A DNA stretch of 64,000 nt from Candidatus Gastranaerophilales bacterium (lineage in GTDB: Bacteria; Cyanobacteriota; Vampirovibrionia; Gastranaerophilales; Gastranaerophilaceae). Both the position numbers and the translations under genes were made by a program. The DNA is taken from contig CANRGC010000002.1 of assembly GCA_947630045.1 (NCBI GenBank), positions 1 through 64,000 of the forward strand, given 5' to 3'. The notes under the pieces are model-generated. The model saw nothing but the letters and a program-made list of their open reading frames with translations. It was not told the origin of the DNA and did not search any database. Shown here one piece after another: positions 49,755 to 64,000 of this stretch. Within the stretch, counting starts at the first letter, position 1. Each line of letters opens with the position of its first letter.

Positions 49755-50963
49755 ATGGGCATAAAAATAGATACAGTAATAATAGATTCGGAAGAAACCT
49801 CAAGAGAGTTAATTTTAAATTATCTTCAAGATGTTGAAGATATTAATGTTCTTCAACAGTTTAGCGATATTCTCGTTGCTCAGGATTTTATTATTGAAAA
49901 TAAAGTTCCGCTTGTAATTGTTGATGTGACAACAAAAACAAATATTTCACTCGATATAATTTCAAAGTTGACTTCTTCCGTCAAAAATATAAAAATCATT
50001 GTTTTATCTTATGAAATGGATTCAAACCTCGTCATAAGAACACTAAGAGCGGGGGCAAGAGAATTTTTAACCAAGCCGTTAATTCAAAACGATTTTATTG
50101 AGGCTGTTCAAAAAATGAAAGACCTTATTTTGGGTAATATAAACGATATGACCAAATGTAAGGTGGTTACGGTTTTTTCAAATAAGGGCGGAATAGGAAA
50201 AACTTCTCTGGCGGTTAATCTTGCAATGGAGATTGCAAATATTACAAAAGAAAAAGTTGCGCTTATTGATTTAAATATGCAAATGGGCGATATTACAACA
50301 TTTTTAAACCTTGACCCTTCTTTTGACACGTCTTACGTCATAAACAATTTGGACAGAATTGACGAAACATTTTTGTTATCTACTCTTGAACAATACAATA
50401 AAACAAGCCTTTACGTGCTTGCTGACCCTCCTGACATTGAACAGGCGGAAATTATTACACCTGAGGAAATTTCAACCTTAATAAACATTTTAAGAAACAT
50501 TTTTTCTTATGTAATTATTGACACAACTTCAAGCTTTGATTCAAAAACAATCACTGCGCTTGATAATTCCGACTTAATTCTTTTAATCGGAATAACAAGT
50601 CTGCCTTCAATCAGAAACTTCCAGAGGTGCTATGATTTGTTTAAAAAATTGGGTTATACAAAAGACAAGATTAAACTGATAATTAACAGGTTTATGGAAG
50701 CTGATAAAATTAAGCCCGATGATATTGAAAATGTTCTGGGAGAAAAGGTTTTCTTTACTATTCCAAACAACTATTATACCCTTAACGATTCAATCGAAAA
50801 AGGGCTTCCCGTGTCTGAAATTGCGCCTGATTCAAACCTTTCAAAAAGCTTTAAACAGCTTGCGGCGCTTTTATCAGATAACTATTCTTATAACGGCAGC
50901 AAACACGTCCAGATAAATCGTGAGAACAAATTCAATTTTCTGGGGCTTTTCAATAAAAAGTAA
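49755..50963 (+). CDS. cpaE: Tad localisation ATPase CpaE (receiver-like domain plus MinD/ParA ATPase)
   Basis: A 402-aa protein with an N-terminal response-regulator-like domain (~1-125; 'VPLVIVDVTT' carries the aspartate region, 'GAREFLTKPL' the beta5 lysine) and a MinD/ParA ATPase from ~135 with the deviant Walker A FSNKGGIGKTS near residues 140-150. CpaE positions or regulates the pilus machine. It lies 11 nt after cpaC and 12 nt before cpaF, with its own RBS (ACAGGAAAAA). Confidence 0.92.
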   Translation: MGIKIDTVIIDSEETSRELILNYLQDVEDINVLQQFSDILVAQDFIIENKVPLVIVDVTTKTNISLDIISKLTSSVKNIKIIVLSYEMDSNLVIRTLRAGAREFLTKPLIQNDFIEAVQKMKDLILGNINDMTKCKVVTVFSNKGGIGKTSLAVNLAMEIANITKEKVALIDLNMQMGDITTFLNLDPSFDTSYVINNLDRIDETFLLSTLEQYNKTSLYVLADPPDIEQAEIITPEEISTLINILRNIFSYVIIDTTSSFDSKTITALDNSDLILLIGITSLPSIRNFQRCYDLFKKLGYTKDKIKLIINRFMEADKIKPDDIENVLGEKVFFTIPNNYYTLNDSIEKGLPVSEIAPDSNLSKSFKQLAALLSDNYSYNGSKHVQINRENKFNFLGLFNKK

Positions 50964-50975
50964 GGAGAAACAAAG

Positions 50976-52511
50976 TTGTCTTTAAAAGACAGGTTAAATT
51001 CCAATAACAACAATAATGAAGACAAAAACAACTCCGGCGGTCTTGTTAACTATTCTCTAACGCCATTGAACGATGAGCTTAGAGAGTTAAAAGAACAGCT
51101 TCATGTTTTATTGATTGAAAAAGTTAACACCACTCCAAATTGGGGTACATATTCGGATGACGAACAAAAGGCTTTAATAAGACAATTTATAGATTTTCAA
51201 ATTGCAAGTAATTTCAGACAGGTTCCCATTAATAAGTCTGAAAAGGCACGCCTTATTAAAGAAATTATTCAGGATACTAAAGGTTTCGGACCTTTGGACC
51301 CTTTGCTTGAAGACCCTAACATAAGTGATATTCTTGTAAACGGGGCGGAAAATGTCTATATTGAAAAAAACGGAAAACTCTATAAAACATCCGTCGTTTT
51401 CAAAGATAACGAACATTTAAAAAACATAATTGAAAGAATAGTTTCAAGAGTCGGCAGAAGAATTGATGAAAAATCGCCTATGGTGGACGCCAGACTTCCT
51501 GACGGAAGCCGTGTTAACGCAATTATTCCGCCGCTTGCAATAGACGGACCCTCTCTTTCAATCAGACGTTTTAAAAAAGACGCCGGCACAATTGAAGCCC
51601 TTTTGAAATGGGGCTCTATGAGCAAAGAAATCGCCGATATTTTAATGGCGGCAGTTGTTGCAAGATGTAATATAATTATCTCAGGTGGTACCGGCGCAGG
51701 TAAAACAACCCTTTTAAACAGTTTATCAGCCGCAATTCCGCACAACGAAAGAATTATCACAATCGAAGATTCAGCCGAATTGAACCTCAACCAAGACCAT
51801 GTTGTAAGGCTTGAAACAAGACCGAAAAACATTGAGGGCGAAGGGGAAATTTCGACAAGAGATTTGGTTATTAACGCTTTGCGTATGCGCCCTGACAGAA
51901 TAGTAATCGGTGAATGTCGTGGCGCCGAAACCCTTGATATGCTTCAGGCTATGAACACGGGTCATGACGGCTCATTAACTACGCTTCACGCCAATTCTCC
52001 CCGTGACGCTCTTTCAAGGCTTGAAACAATGGTTTTATACGCCGGTGTTGACCTTCCGAGTAAAAATATAAGACAACAAATTGCATCTGCCATAAACATA
52101 ATTATTCAGGTTTCAAGACTTCAAGACGGCTCAAGAAAACTGACAAGAGTGTCTGAAATTACGGGCATGGAAGAATCTGTCATAACCATGCAAGATATTT
52201 TTGTTTTTCAACAAACTGGTTTAAGCGATAATGTTGTTATGGGAACGCATGTTTCAACGGGAGTTCGCCCCGAATTTTTAAAGAAAATCGAAAGAGTCGG
52301 AATTGAAGTCAACTCAAGAATTTTTGATTCTTCATATAAACATTCCTATTTTGTTAAAACATCAAATGAAAATATAATTACAAAATCTCGAATAATTCAA
52401 AACGAAAAAAATGACACAAGAAAAATAGACTCTGTAAGGGAAGCAATTCAAAGCAGAAATCAAAATGAGCTTGATATTCTAAGAAGGCTGAAAAGAAATG
52501 AGCGCAATTAA
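50976..52511 (+). CDS. cpaF: Tad secretion ATPase CpaF/TadA
   Basis: A 511-aa type II/IV secretion ATPase. Walker A is ISGGTGAGKTTLLN near residue 230, followed by 'ERIITIEDSAELNL', the His box 'DGSLTTLHANSPRDALSRLE' and 'RMRPDRIVIGECRGAE'. It powers pilus assembly. The initiation codon is TTG, placed 8 nt after AAGGAG; no in-frame ATG gives an equally good context. The C-terminal ~90 residues extend beyond the usual ATPase core and are basic. It overlaps tadB by 14 nt. Confidence 0.95.
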   Translation: MSLKDRLNSNNNNNEDKNNSGGLVNYSLTPLNDELRELKEQLHVLLIEKVNTTPNWGTYSDDEQKALIRQFIDFQIASNFRQVPINKSEKARLIKEIIQDTKGFGPLDPLLEDPNISDILVNGAENVYIEKNGKLYKTSVVFKDNEHLKNIIERIVSRVGRRIDEKSPMVDARLPDGSRVNAIIPPLAIDGPSLSIRRFKKDAGTIEALLKWGSMSKEIADILMAAVVARCNIIISGGTGAGKTTLLNSLSAAIPHNERIITIEDSAELNLNQDHVVRLETRPKNIEGEGEISTRDLVINALRMRPDRIVIGECRGAETLDMLQAMNTGHDGSLTTLHANSPRDALSRLETMVLYAGVDLPSKNIRQQIASAINIIIQVSRLQDGSRKLTRVSEITGMEESVITMQDIFVFQQTGLSDNVVMGTHVSTGVRPEFLKKIERVGIEVNSRIFDSSYKHSYFVKTSNENIITKSRIIQNEKNDTRKIDSVREAIQSRNQNELDILRRLKRNERN

Positions 52512-53466
52512 TACTTTATTATGTATGATAGCGGGAATTTCCGCCGGAGTGTGCGCATTTAACTTGTGCGTTTACTATAACGTTGATGAAAAAATCACCG
52601 TAAGAAGGCTTATTGCGGTTAAAAACCATGAACAAAGAGTTGACACAACCTCTGCCAGAAACAATTTTACTCTCACAAGAAGTATCTTCCAATTTAAGAT
52701 TTTTTCAAAAATTTTAAAAGATATAAAATCAACGGAAAGAATAAAGCTTCTTCTTGAAAGGGCGGATATTCCGTGGCAAGTTGATACATTTATAATTTTA
52801 AGTGCAATTTTGGGGTTAATTCCTCTGATTTTGGCGCTTTTCTTTTCGCCCGTCATTGCAATTCTATGCCCTGTGGCGCTTGCGATTAACCCTTTGTATG
52901 TAAGATACAGAATAAAAAAGAAAAATTTACTCTTTACTCAACAGTTGCCCGATGCGCTTGATTTATTGTGTAACGCTTTAAGGGCGGGGCATTCGCTTTT
53001 TAGTGCGCTTGGAATTATTGTAAAAGAAATGCCAAACCCGATAAGTAAGATTTTTAAAATTTTAACCGACGAAATTGCCCTTGGTATTGACGTTAAAGAC
53101 GCCATGAAATCTTTACAGGAAGCCATGCCCGAATCTGTTGACCTCAGATTTTTTACAACGGTTGTTATTTTGCAAAGAGAAATAGGCGGCAACCTTATAA
53201 AACTTCTTGAGGTGTTATCTTCAACAATAAGGGAGCGCTTTAAAATGATTGGACAATTAAAAGCGCAAACAATGCAGGCAAGACTTTCAGGCATTATTGT
53301 TTCGGTTATTCCGCCTATAATCGGGGTTATTTTATACTTAATGTCCCCGAGTTATATGAGCTATTTAATAAATCACCCGTGGGGAAAAATTGCCCTCGGA
53401 GTGTCAATTGTTCTTATGATAGCGGGATATGCAATTATTAATAAAATTACGGATATAGATGTATGA
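52498..53466 (+). CDS. tadB: Tad inner-membrane platform protein TadB
   Basis: A 322-aa GspF-type membrane protein: N-terminal anchor (residues ~4-22), a pair of membrane helices near 98-130, a cytoplasmic four-helix GspF domain beginning 'QQLPDALDLLCNALRAGHSL' near 150, and a C-terminal pair of helices. It is one half of the heteromeric platform turned by CpaF. Overlaps both neighbours (14 nt with cpaF, 4 nt ATGA with tadC). Confidence 0.92.
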   Translation: MSAINTLLCMIAGISAGVCAFNLCVYYNVDEKITVRRLIAVKNHEQRVDTTSARNNFTLTRSIFQFKIFSKILKDIKSTERIKLLLERADIPWQVDTFIILSAILGLIPLILALFFSPVIAILCPVALAINPLYVRYRIKKKNLLFTQQLPDALDLLCNALRAGHSLFSALGIIVKEMPNPISKIFKILTDEIALGIDVKDAMKSLQEAMPESVDLRFFTTVVILQREIGGNLIKLLEVLSSTIRERFKMIGQLKAQTMQARLSGIIVSVIPPIIGVILYLMSPSYMSYLINHPWGKIALGVSIVLMIAGYAIINKITDIDV

Positions 53467-54410
53467 TGAACGGAATAATTACGGCAAAAATAATAATTAT
53501 CTCGGTAATCGCCTTTCTTGTAGGCTCTATAGTTTATACGGCAATTACCAAAGATGACAATTATCTTTTGGAAAGGCTCAAAAAAAGACATAATACACAG
53601 AGAAAAAGAAGCTTTTTTGACGATATCCTCGAGATAATTAAACCTGTTGCCGTTGCCAATTTAAAAACAAACAAAAATAAAGACCTTATAAGAAAAATGT
53701 TTGTCCAACTCGGAAAATCGGCAACAGAAGCCGACATTATAGATTTTGAAAACAAAAAAATTCTCCACCTGATAATAACTTTATTTATAACGGGCGCCAT
53801 TTCTCTTTTATATGGAATAGTTATGCCCAGAGACATTTTAACCACGGTTTTTTGTTTCGGTATTGTTATCTGTCCTTCTCTTTATATATACAGGCGCCCG
53901 ACAACAGCGCTGCAAGTGGCATTAAAAAAGAAAGCAAAGGCTTTTGAAAAATATTTTCCCGACGCAATTGATCTTCTTTGTGTTTGCGTTGAAGCCGGAC
54001 TGAGCATAGATAGCGCCATTGAGCGTGTAGGAAGGGAGTTCAGTAATTTTTCATATGATGTCGGTTATGAATTCAGCAGAATTGCGCAGGATATGTTATC
54101 GGGCGTTTCAAAGCAAGATTCTCTCAGGGCATTTTCAGAAAGGGTTGAAAATAAAGACATTCAATCGTTCGTCGCCATTGTTATACAGGCAGACAGAATG
54201 GGCGCTTCCATTGCTCATTCGCTTGCCATTTCCGCCGATTCTTTAAGAACAAAAAGAAAACAACGTCTTGAGGCGCAAGTTGCTTCCGCTTCAACAAAAA
54301 TGACAATTCCTCTGGTTTTGTGTCTTTTGCCCGCAACATTTGCGGTTGTTTTAACTCCCGCAATTATTCAGGTTGTTGAAAGTTTAGGTAAAATGAATGG
54401 TTTCCAATAA
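53463..54410 (+). CDS. tadC: Tad inner-membrane platform protein TadC
   Basis: A 315-aa GspF-type protein, partner of TadB. Membrane segments are near residues 10-27, 100-118 and 122-140 and at the C-terminus; the GspF domain holds 'FPDAIDLLCVCVEAGLSIDS' near 163 and 'QADRMGASIAHSLAISADSL' near 243. It is the last recognisable Tad component; no Flp pilin, prepilin peptidase TadV or TadE-like pseudopilin follows. It overlaps ribD by 14 nt. Confidence 0.92.
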   Translation: MMNGIITAKIIIISVIAFLVGSIVYTAITKDDNYLLERLKKRHNTQRKRSFFDDILEIIKPVAVANLKTNKNKDLIRKMFVQLGKSATEADIIDFENKKILHLIITLFITGAISLLYGIVMPRDILTTVFCFGIVICPSLYIYRRPTTALQVALKKKAKAFEKYFPDAIDLLCVCVEAGLSIDSAIERVGREFSNFSYDVGYEFSRIAQDMLSGVSKQDSLRAFSERVENKDIQSFVAIVIQADRMGASIAHSLAISADSLRTKRKQRLEAQVASASTKMTIPLVLCLLPATFAVVLTPAIIQVVESLGKMNGFQ

Positions 54411-55446
54411 AGAAGATGAAAAATATATAAAAAAATGTTTTATTCTTGCTAAAAAAGGCGGGTTTAACGTCTTTAAAAATCCGCTTGTGGGCTGTGTTAT
54501 AGTAAAAAACGGAGAAATTATTTCAAAAGGATACCATAAAAAATACGGAGAGTTTCATGCCGAAAGAAACGCAATTTTAAACGCCAATGACAAAGATTTG
54601 GAAGGTTCAACCCTTTATGTTAATCTTGAGCCTTGTTCTCATTTTGGAAAGACCCCCCCTTGCACAGATTTAATTATTGAAAAAAAAATTAAAAGAGTTT
54701 GTTATTCAAATTCAGACCCAAATTTGAAAGTAGACGGGCATAATAAATTAATTCAAGCCGGAATTGAAGTTGTAAAAGGGGTTTTAGAAAAAGAAGGCGA
54801 AGAATTAAACAAAGTTTTTTTCAAAAATATAAAAACAAAAACTCCTTATATTGCAATAAAAACCGGAACTACGCTTGATTCGAAAATTGCAACAAAAGAT
54901 TTTCAATCAAAATGGATAACAAACGAATTTTCAAGATGTGAAGTAATGAAGTTAAGAAGTTCTTATATGGGAATTTTAACGGGCTCAAACACCGTTTTGA
55001 CCGATAATCCTCATTTAACTTCAAGAATAAAAAACGGAATTTCTCCGGTTAGAATTGTTATAGACAGAGAAGGAAAACTCGATAATTCCGCAAACATTTT
55101 TAATAATGACGTCAGGGTTATTGTTGTTTCAAATTCAGAAAAAAAATATCCCTCAAATGTTGAAAAAATTCCTTTTAAAAACATGCAAACATTAATGAAA
55201 ACGCTTTATGAAAAAGGAATAACATCCATTCTTGTTGAAGCGGGCGGAAAATTAAACGGAATTTTGCTCAAAGAAAAGCTTGTTGATGAAATCTATCAGT
55301 TTATTTCGCCAAAAATTCTCGGTGAGGGAATTAATTTTACATCGGGTCTTAATTTAGATAAACTCTCTCTTGCCATAAAAACAAAAGATTTAAAAATTAA
55401 AAAATTTAAAGAAGATATTTTGTTAAACTATAAACTTATTTATTGA
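54397..55446 (+). CDS. ribD: Riboflavin biosynthesis deaminase/reductase RibD
   Basis: A 349-aa bifunctional enzyme: N-terminal zinc deaminase (~1-145) with 'HAERNAILNAN' and 'PCSHFGKTPPCTDLI', and C-terminal reductase (~150-349) with 'IAIKTGTTLDSKIAT' and 'GILTGSNTVLTDNPHLT'. It performs the second and third steps of riboflavin synthesis. The gene starts inside tadC (14-nt overlap), so its translation is coupled to the Tad operon, an unusual link. No FMN riboswitch precedes it. It converges with tspO (7-nt overlap). Confidence 0.95.
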   Translation: MVSNKEDEKYIKKCFILAKKGGFNVFKNPLVGCVIVKNGEIISKGYHKKYGEFHAERNAILNANDKDLEGSTLYVNLEPCSHFGKTPPCTDLIIEKKIKRVCYSNSDPNLKVDGHNKLIQAGIEVVKGVLEKEGEELNKVFFKNIKTKTPYIAIKTGTTLDSKIATKDFQSKWITNEFSRCEVMKLRSSYMGILTGSNTVLTDNPHLTSRIKNGISPVRIVIDREGKLDNSANIFNNDVRVIVVSNSEKKYPSNVEKIPFKNMQTLMKTLYEKGITSILVEAGGKLNGILLKEKLVDEIYQFISPKILGEGINFTSGLNLDKLSLAIKTKDLKIKKFKEDILLNYKLIY

Positions 55447-55829
55447 TTTTTTATATAAATATCAAAGTTTAAATAAAGCGCAAATAAAAGCCACATTAAA
55501 TAAGGAAGAAGCAAAAGCCCCGAAATTTTTCTTTTTTTGTAAAAAAGAATAATTGTCGGAACAAGAAGCAAAATTATTCCGATAATTACAAAAACGGAAA
55601 GTAATATCTCGTGGCGGACAAAAAATACATAACTCCATGAAAAATTTAAAATTATACCCAAAATAAAAAGCGCAATGGGAATTATGTCTTTTTTGCTTAT
55701 TCCCGATTTAAGATAGAGAATAAATGAAACGGTGATTAAAAAATATAAAATCGCCCAGCAGATTGTAAAAACTTTCGCAGGCGGAGTCAGAACCGATTTA
55801 TTTAAACTTTTATACCATAAATTTTGCAT
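55440..55829 (-). CDS. tspO: TspO/MBR-family membrane protein
   Basis: A 129-aa protein with five membrane helices, the TspO/translocator-protein layout. Marks are 'LTPPAKVFTICWAILYFLI' near the N-terminus, 'ILNFSWSYVFF' in the middle and 'LPYLMWLLFALYLNFDI' at the end. TspO proteins bind tetrapyrroles and respond to stress. I start at ATG 55829 rather than the GTG at 55844. It converges with ribD. Confidence 0.9.
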   Translation of the reverse strand: MQNLWYKSLNKSVLTPPAKVFTICWAILYFLITVSFILYLKSGISKKDIIPIALFILGIILNFSWSYVFFVRHEILLSVFVIIGIILLLVPTIILFYKKRKISGLLLLPYLMWLLFALYLNFDIYIKNQ

Positions 55830-55882
55830 AATTTTATTTTTCACGGTAAAAAAAGTTTTTAATTACCCAAAAGGGCAAAAAG

Positions 55883-55911
55883 AAAAGGAAACCAAATTTG
55901 GTTTCCTTTTT
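55883..55911. terminator. Bidirectional intrinsic terminator
   Basis: A perfect palindrome, GGAAACCAAATTTGGTTTCC (55887-55906), flanked by AAAA and TTTTT; ends the leftward anti-sigma/sigma/Spy operon. Confidence 0.8.
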
Positions 55912-55927
55912 GTAAGTAAATTTTAGT

Positions 55928-56503
55928 TTACTTTGTGTTTTCTTCCGGTTTCGGCATTATTGCAGGTCCGTGTCCCGCTCTTGGCAAGGCGGGGTTTTGA
56001 CCTTTATAGCCTTTGTGGTCTTTTTCAAATTTTTTTCTTCCTTCTTCTTTCATTTTTTTTAGCTCTTTTAACTGTTTATCCGTTAAAATTGCCTCAAAAT
56101 CTTTCATGTTTTGCATTTTTTGTTCATGAAGTTTTTTATGAAGTTCTCCTATGTCAGATTTAATTTTTTTAATTTCTTCTTCGCTTGAGTTTGCTTTCTT
56201 TGCAGCGTCAAGTTCTTCATGTTTTGTTTTAATTGCTTCCATAAGCGGGCGCATTTCTTGGTGGTCTTGTTTTCTTAATTCTTCCGCTTTTGCTTTTTGT
56301 TCGTCGGTTAAATTTAAGCGTTTTTCAAACGCAGCCTTTTGTTTTTCAGCTTTTTCTCTCGACATCGGCGGTTTTTGAATATCAGCTCTTTTTAAAACAG
56401 GTCTTTGCCCGCCGACTAACGGAATTTGAGTCGGTGTGTCGGCAAATGAAGGTAACATAAAACTCAACATAAGCATACTTGATAAAATTAATTTTTTGTT
56501 CAT
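55928..56503 (-). CDS. Spy/CpxP-like periplasmic chaperone
   Basis: A 191-aa exported protein with a signal peptide ending near residue 21 (SFADT) and a highly charged all-helical mature part. Two LTxxQ-like motifs characteristic of Spy/CpxP are visible: 'RLNLTDEQKAKAEELRK' and 'EAILTDKQLKELKKMKE'. Spy binds unfolded proteins in the periplasm, and CpxP-like proteins sense envelope or metal stress. It is encoded 11 nt after the ECF sigma factor and is probably its main output. ATG 56503 is preceded by AAAGGAAA. The C-terminus is proline/glycine-rich. Confidence 0.88.
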   Translation of the reverse strand: MNKKLILSSMLMLSFMLPSFADTPTQIPLVGGQRPVLKRADIQKPPMSREKAEKQKAAFEKRLNLTDEQKAKAEELRKQDHQEMRPLMEAIKTKHEELDAAKKANSSEEEIKKIKSDIGELHKKLHEQKMQNMKDFEAILTDKQLKELKKMKEEGRKKFEKDHKGYKGQNPALPRAGHGPAIMPKPEENTK

Positions 56504-56514
56504 AATTTTTCCTT

Positions 56515-57012
56515 TCATAGCAAATCACTTAATTTTTCACTTAAAATTTTTTTTGCATTAAAAATCCTTGATTTTATTGTTCCTATAGGACATTTCAACT
56601 TTTTTGCGCAATCTTCATAGGAATATCCTAAAAATTCGGTATAAACTATAACTTCTTTTAGTTTTGGTTTTAAATTGTTAATTTCTTTTAAAATTCTTTT
56701 TCCTTCTTCGTTTTGAATTAACTGAAGTTCCAAAGATTCTTTTTTATCTTTTACGTTTAAAAAAATGTTGTTATCTTCCGTGGCAAGACACTCTTTCTTT
56801 ACCCTTGAAGATTTAAGATAATCTATCGAAACATTTCTTGCAATAGTGTTTATCCAAGCTTTAAAATTCCCCCTTTCTTCATATTTGCGGGAATTATTCA
56901 AAACCTTGATATAAACTTCCTGTTCAAGGTCTTCATTTTCTTCACTTGTAATATTTTTTATTATATTTTTTACATTATTTCTGTTCAGATTAAAAATTTC
57001 TTTAAAATTCAT
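56515..57012 (-). CDS. ECF-type RNA polymerase sigma factor
   Basis: A 165-aa group 4 (ECF) sigma factor with only regions 2 and 4. Region 2 runs through 'DLEQEVYIKVLNNSRKYEER' and 'FKAWINTIARNVSIDYLKSS'; region 4 is 'YSYEDCAKKLKCPIGTIKSR' with its helix-turn-helix. It starts inside the end of the anti-sigma gene (11-nt overlap) and is followed by the Spy-like gene, so the module probably senses envelope protein stress and drives its own operon. Confidence 0.93.
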   Translation of the reverse strand: MNFKEIFNLNRNNVKNIIKNITSEENEDLEQEVYIKVLNNSRKYEERGNFKAWINTIARNVSIDYLKSSRVKKECLATEDNNIFLNVKDKKESLELQLIQNEEGKRILKEINNLKPKLKEVIVYTEFLGYSYEDCAKKLKCPIGTIKSRIFNAKKILSEKLSDLL

Positions 57013-57355
57013 TTTCCACCATTATTAGCCCGTAGGAATCAACAGGAAATCCAAGGTCTTCGGCGCTAAGAGCATGCCCGTATTTTATAGTGTCTAAAAG
57101 AGCGTTATTATAATTTAAGACCGAAAATATGCCTGTCGTTAAAAACACAAGAAATATTGCGCAAGAAGCCATTATGCTTTTTTGTCTTGCCCTTTCCTTA
57201 AAATAGAAAGGTTTTGCCTTTTGAATTAATTTAGAGATATCATCCATTTTTTTGGCTTCCTCTTTGCAATCGTCGCAAGAGCCAAGATGTTCCTCAAAAT
57301 CTTTTTCGTTTGCAAAAACAAACATTCCTTCAAATTTTGTACATTTTTCTTTCAT
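57002..57355 (-). CDS. Membrane anti-sigma factor with zinc-binding N-terminus
   Basis: A 117-aa protein with a cytoplasmic anti-sigma (ZAS/zf-HC2-like) motif 'FEEHLGSCDDCKEE' (H-x3-C-x2-C, residues ~20-33), one membrane helix near 63-80 and a short periplasmic domain of ~35 residues. It would sequester the ECF sigma factor encoded next. Having the anti-sigma gene first is the reverse of the commoner sigma-then-anti-sigma order. The family assignment comes from the motif, topology and context. Confidence 0.8.
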   Translation of the reverse strand: MKEKCTKFEGMFVFANEKDFEEHLGSCDDCKEEAKKMDDISKLIQKAKPFYFKERARQKSIMASCAIFLVFLTTGIFSVLNYNNALLDTIKYGHALSAEDLGFPVDSYGLIMVENEF

Positions 57356-57379
57356 TTTTACCTCGTTTACATTTAGTAT

Positions 57380-57403
57380 AACGAAATTAAAATAAAAATG
57401 TTC
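57380..57403 (-). promoter_or_regulatory. Candidate ECF-type autoregulatory promoter
   Basis: On the minus strand GAAC (57400-57403), 16 bp, CGTT (57380-57383), the general GAAC-N16/17-CGT pattern of ECF promoters, ending 24 nt upstream of the anti-sigma ATG. A TATACT overlaps the -10 side, so a sigma-70 reading is also possible. Confidence 0.4.
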
Positions 57404-57416
57404 ATTTTTGCTTTTC

Positions 57417-57445
57417 TTTACATTATCCCCTCAATCTGATATACT
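57417..57445 (+). promoter_or_regulatory. Sigma-70 promoter of the pseudopilin gene, extended -10
   Basis: TTTACA (57417-57422), 17 bp, TATACT (57440-57445) preceded by TGA, an extended -10; AAAGGGA then lies upstream of ATG 57479. Confidence 0.6.
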
Positions 57446-57478
57446 TTACTTGACTTGTTTTAAAGGGAATTATGTTAT

Positions 57479-58267
57479 ATGAAAAAAGCTTTTACTCTTG
57501 CTGAAATTTTAATAACACTCGCAATTATCGGTATTGTGGCGGCTCTTGCAATTCCGGCAGTTCTTGCAAATGCCCAGCAACAAGAATATAAAACCGGTTT
57601 GAAAAAGGCTGTTTCTGTTTTAAATCAGGCAGTTATGACAAACCTTGCTCTTGACGATGAAACGCCGCTTACAAATAATGACTTATATGAATTTTTAAAA
57701 AGACACATGAGCGTTATAAAAACCGCAACGTTTTCTTCTTGTTATTCTAAATCCGGCGTAAGTTCGGGTATGGTGGCGGATAAAGACGGAAAACAAAATT
57801 GCGGCGGTGACAGCAGCGCCGTTCAAAATAAAGTTTTCTATACTACAGACGGTATGCGTTTTGAATTTGCTTCAAGATCAGGCGGAAAATCAACCATACT
57901 TCTTCACGAAGACGGTACTGACCTTTTGAGCAGAGATACCGAAATGGGGAATTGCGGTTCTTTGGGGCTTAACGCCAACCCGAATAAAACAAAGAAAATG
58001 CCTTGCGTAATTATGGTAGATGTTAACGGGGATAAGGGTCCGAGCAAACCCACAGGCGAAAGCGCAAAAGATGCGGAAGGCAAGTCCACCGGTACTACCA
58101 ATATTCTTGCAAATTATGTTTATCCGAAACCGAATGATAACAGGGTGACAGACGTATTTACCCTCATTGTCACCGAATCAAAGGTTATTCCTTTCGGTGT
58201 TTCGGCACAAAGAGCAATGTATACCGACAAAAGATTAACAAAAAAAGAACAGAATGAACTCAAATAG
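57479..58267 (+). CDS. Prepilin-type N-terminal methylation protein (type II/IV pseudopilin)
   Basis: A 262-aa pseudopilin with a very short leader ending before FTLAEILITLAIIGIVAAL (residues 5-23): cleavage and N-methylation would occur at Phe5, with Glu9 (+5) present. The rest is a globular domain with four or five cysteines ('FSSCYSKSG', 'KQNCGG', 'MGNCGS', 'KMPCVIM') that may form disulfides. It may be surface pilus or secretion related, but no type II/IV assembly genes are close. It needs a prepilin peptidase encoded elsewhere. Its own promoter is at 57417-57445. Confidence 0.9.
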   Translation: MKKAFTLAEILITLAIIGIVAALAIPAVLANAQQQEYKTGLKKAVSVLNQAVMTNLALDDETPLTNNDLYEFLKRHMSVIKTATFSSCYSKSGVSSGMVADKDGKQNCGGDSSAVQNKVFYTTDGMRFEFASRSGGKSTILLHEDGTDLLSRDTEMGNCGSLGLNANPNKTKKMPCVIMVDVNGDKGPSKPTGESAKDAEGKSTGTTNILANYVYPKPNDNRVTDVFTLIVTESKVIPFGVSAQRAMYTDKRLTKKEQNELK

Positions 58268-58314
58268 CCTTTTGGCATAAAAAACAAATTATATCTTAGT
58301 GCTATAATTTTTTT

Positions 58315-59292
58315 ATGCAAAAAAAAGAGATAATCGAGCTTTTAAATTCTGACGGTACAGAGCTTTTTGCCGCTGCGGATGAGGTTAGGAAAAAATATAA
58401 AAAAGATGAAGTTCACCTCAGGGGTTTAATTGAGTTTTCAAACATCTGTAAGAGAAATTGTGCATATTGCGGGCTTCAGGCAAGAAATAAAAAGCTTGAA
58501 AGATACAGGCTTTTACCGGATGAAATAATTGAAATTGCTAAAAAGGCGGCAAATTTAGGTTATAAAACCGTTGTTTTGCAGTCGGGCGAGGACGATTTTT
58601 ATACAACCGAGATAATATGCAATATTGTATCTGAAATTAAAAAACTCGACATGGCGCTCACTTTAAGCATAGGCGAAAAGTCTTATGATGAATATAAAGC
58701 CTATAGAGAAGCGGGCGCAGACAGATATCTTTTAAGAATTGAAACGACGGATGAAAATTTATACAAAAAACTTCACCCGAATATGAGCCTTGAAAACAGA
58801 AAAAAATGTCTTTACAATTTAAAAAAACTCGGATATGAAACGGGCTCCGGAACGCTTGTGGGAATAGGACAAGAGGTTTCTTCTCTTGCGGATGACATTT
58901 TGTTTTTTAAAAGCCTTGATATGGATATGGTTGGAATAGGACCTTTTATTCCCCACCCGAACACCCCCTTAAAAGGGGAAATAAACCCTAAAAATTTTGA
59001 TATGGCGCTAAAAATGATGGCAATAACCAGACTTGTCATGCCGGATATAAATATTCCCGCCACTACCGCCATGGAAACAATTAACCCCAACGGAAGAATA
59101 ATTGCCCTTCAATCGGGGGCAAATGTCGTTATGCCCAATATAACAACAACAAAATATCGCTCAAAATATGAAATTTATCCGAATAAAATTTGCCTAAACG
59201 ATGCCCCCGAAACTTGCAGAAGCTGTATTGAAGCTAAGATTAGGTCTATCGGGCGATATGTTTCCGATACAAAAGGATATAGAAAACAATAG
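58315..59292 (+). CDS. hydE: [FeFe] hydrogenase H-cluster radical SAM maturase HydE
   Basis: A 325-aa radical SAM protein. The N-terminal 'GLIEFSNICKRNCAYCGLQA' carries the CxxxCxxC cluster motif in the HydE context, followed by 'VVLQSGEDDFYT', 'RIETTDENLYKKLHP', 'GIGPFIPHPNTP' and 'NITTTKYRSKYEIYPNKICL'. HydE helps build the H-cluster of [FeFe] hydrogenase; BioB and PylB relatives differ in these blocks. A C-terminal 'CRSCIEAK' pair may bind an accessory cluster. TATAAT (58303-58308) ends 6 nt before the ATG. HydF, HydG and the hydrogenase are not in the window. Confidence 0.93.
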   Translation: MQKKEIIELLNSDGTELFAAADEVRKKYKKDEVHLRGLIEFSNICKRNCAYCGLQARNKKLERYRLLPDEIIEIAKKAANLGYKTVVLQSGEDDFYTTEIICNIVSEIKKLDMALTLSIGEKSYDEYKAYREAGADRYLLRIETTDENLYKKLHPNMSLENRKKCLYNLKKLGYETGSGTLVGIGQEVSSLADDILFFKSLDMDMVGIGPFIPHPNTPLKGEINPKNFDMALKMMAITRLVMPDINIPATTAMETINPNGRIIALQSGANVVMPNITTTKYRSKYEIYPNKICLNDAPETCRSCIEAKIRSIGRYVSDTKGYRKQ

Positions 59293-59375
59293 CCACACGG
59301 GTTATATATTCAAATTTTTAACGTAATAGAATTAAGTTACTGGGACTAATACTTATTAACAACAGGACTATTAAC

Positions 59376-59579
59376 ATGGACAATATTTACAATCTTACGG
59401 AAAGAGAACTCGAAGTTTTATCTTTAATTGTTAAAGGAAAAACAAACACGGAAATTGCAAAAACTTTACTTATTACCACCCACACAACAAAAGCCCACGT
59501 AATTTCCATTTTAAGAAAAACAGGGGTTAAAAACAGGGTTAAAGCCGCAATGCTTGCCTTTAAAAAAAATCTTGCATAA
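59376..59579 (+). CDS. Stand-alone LuxR/GerE-type helix-turn-helix protein
   Basis: A 67-aa protein that is almost only a LuxR-type DNA-binding domain: 'NLTERELEVLSLIVKGKTNT' then 'TTHTTKAHVISILRKTGVKN'. It has no receiver or ligand domain, like GerE (74 aa), and would bind DNA constitutively or through a partner. It lies between hydE and the GGDEF protein gene on the same strand; targets are unknown. Confidence 0.88.
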   Translation: MDNIYNLTERELEVLSLIVKGKTNTEIAKTLLITTHTTKAHVISILRKTGVKNRVKAAMLAFKKNLA

Positions 59580-59633
59580 TTAAATATTACCCGCTACTTC
59601 TTTTTTATTTAAAAAAGATGTATAATAAGGTTT

Positions 59634-61544
59634 ATGGGACTTTTTAATTGGATAAAAACTCTGAACAACGAGCTGAAGTTGGCTGAAGATAAGATGTATC
59701 GCCAAAAGAATGATTTTGTCGAGATTTATCAGCGAAATATAGCTCTTGAAAAAGAAATAGCCCTCAGAACGGAAGAATTAAGAAAAGCAAACAAAACCTT
59801 GCTTACCCTTGAACATGTTTGGGATATGATGAATTCTTCCCGTCCGCTTTCAAGCGTTTTGGAAACAATAGTTTCAAGCCTTCATGGCGAGTTTGGATAT
59901 TTATACAGTTGTATTTTACAGAAACAGTTAGATAAACAAGGCAGCTTTTTTGCTTTTAAAACCTATCTTCAAAACTCTTTTTCCGAAAATCTTGATAAAT
60001 TAATTTCAAACAGCCTTTTTGAAACAAGATTTATAATTAAGAAAAATTCCCCCTTTCAAGAACTTTTAGAAAATAAAGAAATTAAATGTTTTGATAATTT
60101 AAAAGAAATTTTAAATGAGCTTTTTCCAAACCAAATTTCGGATGACGATATAAAAGAGTTTCAAAACGTTAATTCAGCCCATTCTTTGATTGCACTCCCG
60201 ATTTTATCAAAAGAATTTACCGGAATTTTAATGGTTTTCTCACCGAGAGAAGAAGCCAAAGATTCGGAATTAAATTTCTTGAGCCTTTTTGCAAAACAAA
60301 TCGAACTTGCAATAACAATCGCAAATCTTTTTGAAACCGTTAAAAAACAAGCTGTAACAGACCCCCTCACCGAACTTTTTAACAGGCGCTTTTATGAAGA
60401 CGCTCTTTCAAGAGAAGCTGTTCGTGCGCTTCGTTTAAATCAGCCCTTTACATTAATTTCACTTGATTTAGACAAACTTAAACACATAAACGATTCTCTG
60501 GGACACTCGGCGGGGGACGCCGCAATTAAGGCAGTTGCAAGAGTTATAAACAAAAATTCCCGATCGGTTGACGTTCCAAGCAGAGTCGGGGGCGAAGAAT
60601 TTACGATAATTCTCCCCGGAGTTGACTCACAGGGCGGTCTTGTTGCCGCAGAAAGAATTCGTGCTTCTCTTGAAGCGGAACATGTTGAAGGGGTGGGGCA
60701 TATAACGGCAAGTGTCGGTGTTGCAACCTTTATAGAAATGACAACAGATGTAGACGAGCTTGTTGAAATTGCCGATAAAGCAATGTATTTTGCAAAACAA
60801 AACGGCAGAAATCAGGTTAAACTTGCCGAAGTTCAAGATACGATTTCATGGCAAGATATTGCAATTGACGCCTTTATTCAAATTTTAGACACCCACAAGG
60901 TTTCTTTTGATAAAGTCACGGCAGACGGGCTCATTAAAAGGCTTCAATCAAGACAGGAAAATAATTCAAACACTTTAACAAGAGAACTTTTGTGTGATGT
61001 TGTCGATTCAATTTCAAAAACCTACACCCCGTTTTATACGGAAGGAACAACAAAACAAAAAGTCGATCTTGCATATGGAATTGCAAAGCGCTTTGAGCTT
61101 CCGAAAGCCGATATGGATAAATTAAAACTCGCCATGCTTTTGTATGACATCGGAAACGTTATGATTCCAAACGATGTTTTATCTAAAAAAGACCCGCTTA
61201 CTCAGGAAGAAAAGAAAGTAATAAGCAGACACCCGATTTTAGGCGCACAAGAAATTTTAAAACCGATAAGTCATATGGCATATATTATTCCGATTATTGA
61301 ACACCACCATGAAAATTGGGACGGCACCGGATATCCCGACAATAAAAAAGGAAACGATATTCCTTTAATTTCTCAAATTATCCTGATTGTTGATTCATAT
61401 TTTGCAATGATATCCGAAAGACCATACAGAAGGGCATATTCTTCCGAAGAAGCCGTTCAGGAAATTGAAAATCTTGCAGGAAAAAAATATTCCGAAGAAT
61501 TGGTAAGAGAATTTAAAAACGCCCTTCAAGACATGTATATTTAA
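59634..61544 (+). CDS. GAF-GGDEF-HD-GYP cyclic-di-GMP protein
   Basis: A 636-aa cytoplasmic protein: coiled coil (~10-65), GAF-like sensor (~65-235), GGDEF domain (~240-400) with an intact GGEEF at 319-323 and an inhibitory RxxD at 310-313 exactly five residues before it, and an HD-GYP-like domain (~480-625). In the latter the HHH (557-559) and GTGYP (564-568) are kept, but the HD pair is YD at 504-505 and the following lysine is Asn. It is thus probably an active, feedback-inhibited diguanylate cyclase with a weakened or dead phosphodiesterase. TATAAT (59621-59626) ends 7 nt before the ATG. Confidence 0.92.
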   Translation: MGLFNWIKTLNNELKLAEDKMYRQKNDFVEIYQRNIALEKEIALRTEELRKANKTLLTLEHVWDMMNSSRPLSSVLETIVSSLHGEFGYLYSCILQKQLDKQGSFFAFKTYLQNSFSENLDKLISNSLFETRFIIKKNSPFQELLENKEIKCFDNLKEILNELFPNQISDDDIKEFQNVNSAHSLIALPILSKEFTGILMVFSPREEAKDSELNFLSLFAKQIELAITIANLFETVKKQAVTDPLTELFNRRFYEDALSREAVRALRLNQPFTLISLDLDKLKHINDSLGHSAGDAAIKAVARVINKNSRSVDVPSRVGGEEFTIILPGVDSQGGLVAAERIRASLEAEHVEGVGHITASVGVATFIEMTTDVDELVEIADKAMYFAKQNGRNQVKLAEVQDTISWQDIAIDAFIQILDTHKVSFDKVTADGLIKRLQSRQENNSNTLTRELLCDVVDSISKTYTPFYTEGTTKQKVDLAYGIAKRFELPKADMDKLKLAMLLYDIGNVMIPNDVLSKKDPLTQEEKKVISRHPILGAQEILKPISHMAYIIPIIEHHHENWDGTGYPDNKKGNDIPLISQIILIVDSYFAMISERPYRRAYSSEEAVQEIENLAGKKYSEELVREFKNALQDMYI

Positions 61545-62992
61545 ATTTTTCCCAATATTTTAAGTTCAAATTCAGGGGCAATTTCTTCATAGCTGATAAC
61601 GGGAATATCCATATAAAGCTGAGATATGAGGGCAAAAACCACCTGTCTTAAGTGAGGATGAGCAACAATAACAATATCTTTGTCAAAAGAGAGTTCTTCA
61701 ATTGTTCTTATGAAGTTTTCAAATTTTTGTCCGTCAATTTTAACGATACACTCATTTTCATCAGTTTCAACGGCGTCGTTTTCCAAAAGCTCAACAATTT
61801 CATCAGAAATTTCATACGCCTCAATTTCTTTATTCCGATTGCTTATAGACCAGCAAATTTGTCTTGATAAAGACACCCTCAATTTTTCCAAAAGGTCAAC
61901 TTTTGAATTGTCGTCTGCAAAATCGTTGATTTTTTCAAAAACGTAAATAACATCCTTAACGCTGATTTTTTCTCTTATTAAAGAACAGAAAATATATTTA
62001 AGTTCCCCGATTGAAATAAAATCGCCCAAAATAGTGTCTACAATTAACGGGTTATTATCGGAAACAATTTCGATATATCTGTTCATATCAGAATAGTTAA
62101 ATATTTCATGAACATGTTTAATTGAAAAATATTTCAGACATCTTGCAATATATTCCGCAGGTTTAATTCCGCTAACCCAATAATCTTTGGTTAAATCTTC
62201 TTTTATCCAAATGACAGGCTTGTTTGAAATCGGGTCATAGTCTTGAATTGAACCTTCGGGAAATTCATCCATATCAAGCTCATCTTCAAAAAAAACAAGA
62301 TAAGAAGGAAAGGCAAGACCCTTTGTAACAGGCACGCCATGAACGTTAATCGTAAAAACGTTGGGTTCAAGATTGTTATCTTCCAAAAATTGAACTTTCG
62401 GAATGATATATCCCAATTCTTTTGTTAATTCCTGTCTTGTTTTTATTGTTTGCGACAAAAGATTTTTTTCGAAACTCGGGTCATTTAAACAATAGTTTTC
62501 TTCGCTTAATGAAATAGAAAGCCTTTCTTCGCCGAGATTTTGGGTCATCTTTGAAGGTGACAAAAGGTTTCTTAACTGTTTTTTAAGGTTGTTTAACTTG
62601 TCAACTTCTTTTGCGATTTCTTCGTTTAAGACATTTCTCTCGTCTTCTTTTGCGCCTTCCAAAAACTTTTTAATTTCTTCAATTTTGGCTCTTTTTTCTT
62701 TAATTTTTTTCTGAAAATTTAAACAGAGTTCATAAGGTTCTTCTTCCGATGAAAACATTCTTTCCATTTTGGTTTTATACCCTTGAATGTCTTCATAATT
62801 TTCATCGTCTTCAATTTCAATTTCTCTTGAAAAAAGAACATTATAAACAAGTTTATTATTTATCTCGCCTTCATAAATTGAATATAAATCCCAGCCTTCT
62901 TTTGACATGGAATTTAAAAGCTGTTCAAAGGCTGTTAATTCTTCCGTCGGGACAGATTTTATGCAAAATTCTTGTCTTTGACCTCTAATCAT
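61541..62992 (-). CDS. Soluble FlhA-C-like protein with N-terminal DUF4177-like domain
   Basis: A 483-aa soluble protein. Residues ~3-60 resemble the small DUF4177 fold ('LLNSMSKEGWDLYSIYEGEI'); a coiled coil spans ~85-150; from ~165 to the end it follows the cytoplasmic domain of FlhA/FHIPEP export-gate proteins: 'RQELTKELGYIIPKVQFLED', 'PVIWIKEDLTKDYWVSGIKP', 'LIREKISVKDVIYVFEKIND' and the C-terminal 'HPHLRQVVFALISQLYMDIP' with VISYEE. The eight-helix membrane part of FlhA is absent, as are flagellar or type III genes nearby. Function unknown; possibly a chaperone or substrate-docking module. It diverges from queD, and TAAAAT ends 6 nt before its ATG. Confidence 0.75.
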   Translation of the reverse strand: MIRGQRQEFCIKSVPTEELTAFEQLLNSMSKEGWDLYSIYEGEINNKLVYNVLFSREIEIEDDENYEDIQGYKTKMERMFSSEEEPYELCLNFQKKIKEKRAKIEEIKKFLEGAKEDERNVLNEEIAKEVDKLNNLKKQLRNLLSPSKMTQNLGEERLSISLSEENYCLNDPSFEKNLLSQTIKTRQELTKELGYIIPKVQFLEDNNLEPNVFTINVHGVPVTKGLAFPSYLVFFEDELDMDEFPEGSIQDYDPISNKPVIWIKEDLTKDYWVSGIKPAEYIARCLKYFSIKHVHEIFNYSDMNRYIEIVSDNNPLIVDTILGDFISIGELKYIFCSLIREKISVKDVIYVFEKINDFADDNSKVDLLEKLRVSLSRQICWSISNRNKEIEAYEISDEIVELLENDAVETDENECIVKIDGQKFENFIRTIEELSFDKDIVIVAHPHLRQVVFALISQLYMDIPVISYEEIAPEFELKILGKI

Positions 62993-63038
62993 ATTTTAAT
63001 TTTATCATATAATTAATTTTTTATGTTAGAATTTTTTT

Positions 63039-63401
63039 ATGTTTGAAGTTAAAGTAGAAACAAGTTTTTCATCCGCACACCACCTTTTAAACTATAAGGG
63101 CAAATGCGAAAATATGCATGGACACAACTGGAAGGTTGAAGTGGTTTTAAAAGGCGAAAGTCTTGACGACTCAAACATTCTGGTTGATTTTAAGGTTTTG
63201 AAAAAAAATGTAAATGAAGTCGTTGATTATCTTGACCATAAAGATATAAACGAATTACCCGAATTTAAAGGAGTTTCGCCGAGTTCCGAAATTATTGCAA
63301 AATATATTTATAACGAGGTTAAAAAGAAATTTAATAACGTTTATAAAGTTAGTGTTTATGAAACTTTGACTTCTTGCGCCACTTATTATGAGGAACAATA
63401 A
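63039..63401 (+). CDS. queD: 6-carboxy-5,6,7,8-tetrahydropterin synthase QueD
   Basis: A 120-aa PTPS-family enzyme that converts dihydroneopterin triphosphate to 6-carboxytetrahydropterin for preQ0/queuosine. The zinc ligands are in 'SSAHHLLNY' and 'MHGHNWKVEV', the catalytic cysteine in 'KCENMHGH', and the C-terminal glutamate in 'VSVYETLTSCATY'. It would use the FolE2 product (gene at 15811). TAGAAT with TG upstream (63027-63032) ends 6 nt before the ATG. It overlaps uppP in TAATG. Confidence 0.93.
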   Translation: MFEVKVETSFSSAHHLLNYKGKCENMHGHNWKVEVVLKGESLDDSNILVDFKVLKKNVNEVVDYLDHKDINELPEFKGVSPSSEIIAKYIYNEVKKKFNNVYKVSVYETLTSCATYYEEQ

Positions 63402-64000
63402 TGCAAACTTTGCAAGCGCTTATAATGGGAACAGTTCAAGGCTTGACGGAATTTTTGCCCGTTTCAAGCTCGGGGCATATTGTTTTAACAAGCGCTCTGT
63501 ATAAACTTTTAACCGGCGCTTCGTTTGATGTTGTTAATTTTGAAGAAATATTTTTTGATATATTAATTCATCTTGCTACTCTATTTGCCGTTATTATCTA
63601 TTTTTTCAAAGATATAAAGAAAATTTTCTCAGGTTTTTTTAAAAGCCTTGTAAAAAAAGATTTTCAAAATGAAGATTTTAAATTTTTTAACTACATTCTT
63701 TTGGGAACGTTTATCACCTCTTGTATCGGGCTTTTAATCAAAGATTTTGCGCACAAATTAACTGAAAACCCTCTTATTGTAAGCGTTTTATTAATTGTCA
63801 CAGGGTGTGTTCTTTATATTTCGGAAAAAATAAACAAAAACGACAAAAAAATGAATTATAAAATAGCAGCCATTGTAGGAATTTTTCAAGGGCTTGCCAT
63901 TTTTCCGGGGCTTTCACGTTCCGGCATGACAATTTCTTCCGCCATGTTTATGGGCATAAACAGGGTTGAAGCGGCAAAATATTCTTTTATTTTGAGCGTT
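63401..64000 (+). CDS. uppP: Undecaprenyl-diphosphatase UppP/BacA (runs off the window)
   Basis: The first 200 residues of a membrane phosphatase that recycles undecaprenyl diphosphate. Both BacA signature regions are visible: 'GTVQGLTEFLPVSSSGHIVL' at the N-terminus and 'FQGLAIFPGLSRSGMTISSA' near residue 166-185, with several membrane helices between. The gene is cut by the window end; about 65-70 residues are expected to be missing. The start ATG overlaps the queD stop by 1 nt. Confidence 0.93.
   Translation, partial: MQTLQALIMGTVQGLTEFLPVSSSGHIVLTSALYKLLTGASFDVVNFEEIFFDILIHLATLFAVIIYFFKDIKKIFSGFFKSLVKKDFQNEDFKFFNYILLGTFITSCIGLLIKDFAHKLTENPLIVSVLLIVTGCVLYISEKINKNDKKMNYKIAAIVGIFQGLAIFPGLSRSGMTISSAMFMGINRVEAAKYSFILSV

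Follow-up and report, generated by a model that had tools for sequence, protein, structure and literature searches.

A conserved soluble paralogue of the FlhA cytosolic domain in Gastranaerophilales

The protein and its domains

The window, the 64,000-nucleotide stretch of DNA analysed here, carries near its end a reverse-strand gene for a 483-residue protein related to the cytosolic domain of the flagellar export protein FlhA (FlhA-C). Tad-type pilus genes (CpaE/TadZ-like, TadA, TadB and TadC, by reading) lie at positions 49755-54410. The features of the gene are as follows:

61541..62992, minus strand: stand-alone FlhA-C paralogue, 483 aa (ATG at 62992, stop at 61541-61543)
62813..62992, minus strand: beta-alpha-beta-beta domain, DUF4177-like below threshold (about residues 1-60; model and profile)
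62561..62737, minus strand: predicted helical hairpin (residues 86-144, with helices 86-111 and 116-144; AF2 model)
62528..62557, minus strand: FlhA-linker-like segment (residues 146-155; alignment)
61544..62527, minus strand: FlhA-C subdomains D1-D4 (about residues 156-483; profiles, model and alignment)

The original prediction of a free FlhA cytosolic domain without the membrane half is borne out by profiles, solved structures and hydropathy. Residues 130-475 match positions 321-656 of the 657-position Pfam FHIPEP profile (E 9.7e-47), TIGR01398 (FlhA) covers residues 126-483 up to the last position of the profile, and FlhA-C and SctV-C chains from the PDB match by sequence, solved FlhA-C with E-values down to 7.6e-31. 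The membrane half and the FHIPEP loop are absent, the Pfam match starting only at position 321, and no transmembrane segment was found in the protein (maximum 19-residue hydropathy 1.44). An AlphaFold (AF2) model, made from a 24-member alignment from which full-length FlhA was left out (pLDDT 79), recovers solved FlhA-C and SctV-C structures in Foldseek (best E 4e-21, TM 0.7-0.83 normalised by target length, about 340 columns). Profiles and model agree that the four-subdomain cytosolic domain is present, as had been anticipated.

The protein is no simple truncation, as a different domain and a helical hairpin stand in place of the membrane half. In the AF2 model residues 5-59 fold as strand-helix-strand-strand, and a GW[DE][LIV]Y motif is conserved in this domain. 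The proposed likeness to DUF4177 (PF13783) is seen only below threshold: the window protein stays under the Pfam cut-off (14.1 of 25 bits), although 15 of 24 family members match at E<=0.1 (best 0.0049). Comparison of the domain with folds in the PDB gave nothing at E<=0.001; the oligomeric dodecins are a very weak match (E 0.035, not significant). The suggested coiled coil is predicted to be a helical hairpin.

A flagellar-type exporter without a filament

The absence of flagellar or type III genes nearby, read from the ORFs, holds for window positions 50000-64000, but other parts of the genome hold a near-complete set. The single full-length FlhA of its assembly is encoded on contig 9, by an operon that also encodes a transglycosylase, FliE, FliF, a 328-aa protein and FliH. 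The 328-aa protein (L003:13221-14207) lies between FliF and FliH, where FliG would be expected. Whether fliPQR and flhB are present, a question left by the original prediction, is answered by contig 13, which carries a FliMN-like protein, FliO and FliP (by Pfam) with FliQ and FliR (assigned by position, size and reading), and by contig 3, which carries FlhB; FliI is on contig 6. The window protein is therefore not an orphaned FlhA-C, as first supposed, but a paralogue of the FlhA of this apparatus. Flagellin and the hook protein FlgE were searched for in the genome and not found. Thus, the export genes represent a flagellar-type exporter without a filament.

Among 33 genomes of the class, those without flagellin have one FliP, and all but one of those with flagellin have two. 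FlhA is likewise of two kinds by FHIPEP score, one of about 720 bits that almost all genomes of the family have and one of about 870 bits that only some have, the latter being the flagellar FlhA. The 720-bit FlhA is also found in three families outside the order (62-67% identity). The filament-less exporter is found throughout Gastranaerophilales, including genomes that lack flagellin, that of the window among them, and a search for FlgE located full hook genes only in flagellated genomes.

Distribution, selection and descent

Gastranaerophilales are gut and environmental bacteria related to cyanobacteria. Close relatives of the window protein are in genomes labelled Candidatus Gastranaerophilales, and when the family alignment was run against the class sample, the detached protein was found at E<1e-140 in 166 of the 167 order genomes with any match. 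The exception, G002, is 98% complete and has the exporter's FlhA, but a detached copy was not found; conversely, G125 has the detached copy, but a full FlhA match was not found. A profile of residues 1-146 hits seven of the seven order families tried and 14 of 15 genomes, with one copy per genome. The taxonomic spread, proposed earlier as a check, is accordingly order-wide across seven families; outside the order, the matches in the class and phylum genomes sampled were all weaker, at the level that full-length FlhA is expected to give. A phage origin was rejected, as relatives were not found in viral contigs.

The detached protein is under strong selection and is not decaying. Over the whole protein, dN/dS is 0.03-0.07 in pairs of close relatives with dS 0.2-1.0, which together with conservation across the order refutes the suggestion of an evolutionary relic.

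A maximum likelihood tree was made from FlhA-C columns with 25 detached proteins; most short FlhA-C pieces were excluded from it because of their very long branches. The detached proteins are monophyletic (support 100/100), fall on the side of the 720-bit FlhA rather than the flagellar one (100/99), and branch inside the order's own 720-bit copies (81/93). The stem of the clade is long (2.2 changes per column), and long-branch effects may blur its exact position, although they are unlikely to cause its separation from flagellar FlhA. The detached protein thus goes back to a single duplication of FlhA-C that predates the diversification of the order.

Parts of the surface have been kept since. 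P146 and M149 of the linker segment are common to the window protein and the genome's full-length (720-bit) FlhA. In Salmonella FlhA the pocket residues D456, F459 and T490 bind chaperones, the linker binds FliJ as well as packing against the adjacent subunit, and linker and cleft have a known regulatory role (PMC8166844). With residues numbered as in E. coli/Salmonella FlhA, D456 is retained in 24 of 25 detached proteins and R391 is invariant, but two of the three pocket residues are changed (F459 to T/S, T490 to R/K), and SEE and a variable residue stand where FlhA has the GYxLI stretch. With the usual subdomain limits of FlhA-C, D1 and D3 are 31% and 35% identical to the 720-bit FlhA, and D2 and D4 16% and 18%. 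As D2 varies most within the 720-bit group as well, its divergence is not very informative by itself. In the alignment, D1, D3 and part of the linker have remained FlhA-like, and D2 and D4 have diverged.

Gene neighbourhoods, function and related systems

In most genomes, four further order families included, the detached gene stands alone among variable neighbours. Of 15 genera, 6 have it no more than 15 kb from an exporter gene, where random positions would give 0.84; the cut-off was picked after looking and the genera are not independent, gene order being partly inherited. In genus g43 (G272 and G275) fliJ-fliK-flgD-flgE follow directly downstream of it, and the 720-bit flhA/fliI are about 13-15 kb away. 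The g43 hook genes were considered as parts of the filament-less exporter, an idea dropped after the FlgE search: with full hook genes only in flagellated genomes, they more likely belong to a true flagellum. A role in the Tad system, suggested earlier, finds no support. The Tad genes are about 7 kb from the detached gene in the window, but in 30 other loci examined the five closest genes on each side include no Tad gene, and the link was rejected for want of a conserved neighbourhood.

The best explanation, for which the chances seem to us about even, is that the window protein is a soluble accessory paralogue of the cytosolic domain of the filament-less exporter's FlhA, working at the exporter's cytosolic ring. 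We infer action at the cytosolic face of the apparatus, and likewise ring formation, partners and clients. After duplication of FlhA-C, the membrane gate was exchanged for the beta-alpha-beta-beta domain and helical hairpin. The better conserved surfaces of D1, D3 and the linker would pack onto the ring of FlhA-C or engage the proteins that bind the linker (FliJ, FliI/FliH), and the altered D1/D2 cleft and D4 would dock or screen different export clients, or fix the ring in one specificity state. The fold, the tree grouping, the g43 operon, the proximity in 6 of 15 genera, the identity in D1 and D3, the pocket aspartate, the low dN/dS and the presence of the exporter in genomes without flagellin speak for this reading; the variable neighbours, the distribution of the g43 partners as true-flagellum hook genes, and the exceptions G002 and G125 speak against it.

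The protein could instead form a cytosolic nonameric ring of its own that serves a different process, be it regulation or secretion by some other route such as Tad, with its FlhA ancestry only historical. A soluble protein with the full FlhA-C fold, replaced chaperone-pocket residues and a gene usually alone among unrelated neighbours would suit such a ring, as would the non-significant dodecin match (E 0.035) of the N-terminal fold. We nevertheless consider it rather unlikely, as the detached protein essentially always accompanies the exporter in the order, D1, D3 and linker positions are its better-preserved parts, and among the loci examined no conserved non-type III neighbour was seen, with Tad genes near only in the window. 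Similarly improbable is a regulatory decoy, in which the soluble FlhA-C holds substrates or FliJ/FliI off the gate until the N-terminal domain senses a signal. The regulatory role of the linker and cleft in Salmonella (PMC8166844) and the g43 neighbours fliJ, for the FlhA-linker partner, and fliK, for the specificity-switch ruler, are consistent with this, but the protein has lost two of the three canonical residues that contact chaperones, and the N-terminal domain is not known to have a sensor function. That the gene is a decaying truncated flhA duplicate without function is scarcely credible: a full-length flhA does exist on another contig of the same genome, but the detached gene is intact in >160 order genomes, with a conserved new N-terminus and dN/dS 0.03-0.07.

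Compared with FlhA/SctV (FHIPEP), the window protein shares the D1-D4 fold, the linker segment, the C-terminal end and the pocket aspartate, but it lacks the membrane domain and FHIPEP loop, has a new N-terminal domain and hairpin, and differs in D2/D4, in the GYxLI stretch (SEE plus a variable residue) and at the F459/T490 equivalents. A comparable case is FlhX, a stand-alone FlhB-C paralogue of Campylobacterota. There too a type III export-gate protein has its cytosolic domain maintained a second time, as a soluble protein of its own next to the full-length one, although FlhX derives from FlhB, is not homologous to FlhA-C and has no extra N-terminal domain of this kind; it is listed as a secretion-system component (PMC9321776).

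Incomplete flagellar gene sets have been described in Gastranaerophilales (Di Rienzi 2013, PMC3787301; Soo 2014, PMC4040986), and the apparatus here is probably that of the flagella lacking filament genes in these papers. Their passages on these gene sets make no mention of a membrane-less FlhA and do not treat the apparatus as a separate exporter. The 2013 paper (PMC3787301) lists two 'flhA' genes for one genome, and that located on a small contig may encode a detached protein of the window's type. No paper naming both FlhA and Gastranaerophilales was found in the open-access literature, which, as the search was limited to that literature, is weak evidence of novelty.

Other FlhA-C-like pieces were observed. 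In G013, L119:4042-5823 encodes 593 aa, with membrane segments predicted around residue 210 and, after them, an FlhA-C that apparently lacks D2; it adjoins response-regulator genes. Short pieces apparently without D2 and D4 are found at L120:4567-5424, L121:4037-4684, L121:5804-6520 and L122:3001-3750, with a predicted N-terminal membrane anchor in L121:5804-6520 and in L122. Two FlhA-C pieces share a 10-kb stretch with L121:794-1813 (G025), a TPR protein with a terminal FlhB-C-like (FlhX-like) domain that scores just under the Pfam cut-off and has lost NPTH. In a family outside the order, L123:4998-5867 (G172) encodes a 289-aa FlhA-C-like protein directly after full-length flhA.

More tentatively, the whole order may possess a flagellar-type secretion system that is independent of flagellin and docks through two modules: the FlhA ring at the membrane, and a second, soluble one, either a ring of FlhA-C or an adaptor, that carries a recruiting domain of its own; the further FlhA-C and FlhB-C fragments of several genomes may belong to the same two-module system. 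The finding also points to common gut bacteria as carriers of a filament-less exporter. Gate and docking ring are normally joined in a single FlhA polypeptide, and with the docking domain naturally split off and conserved next to an intact FlhA, the role of the ring could be studied apart from the gate.
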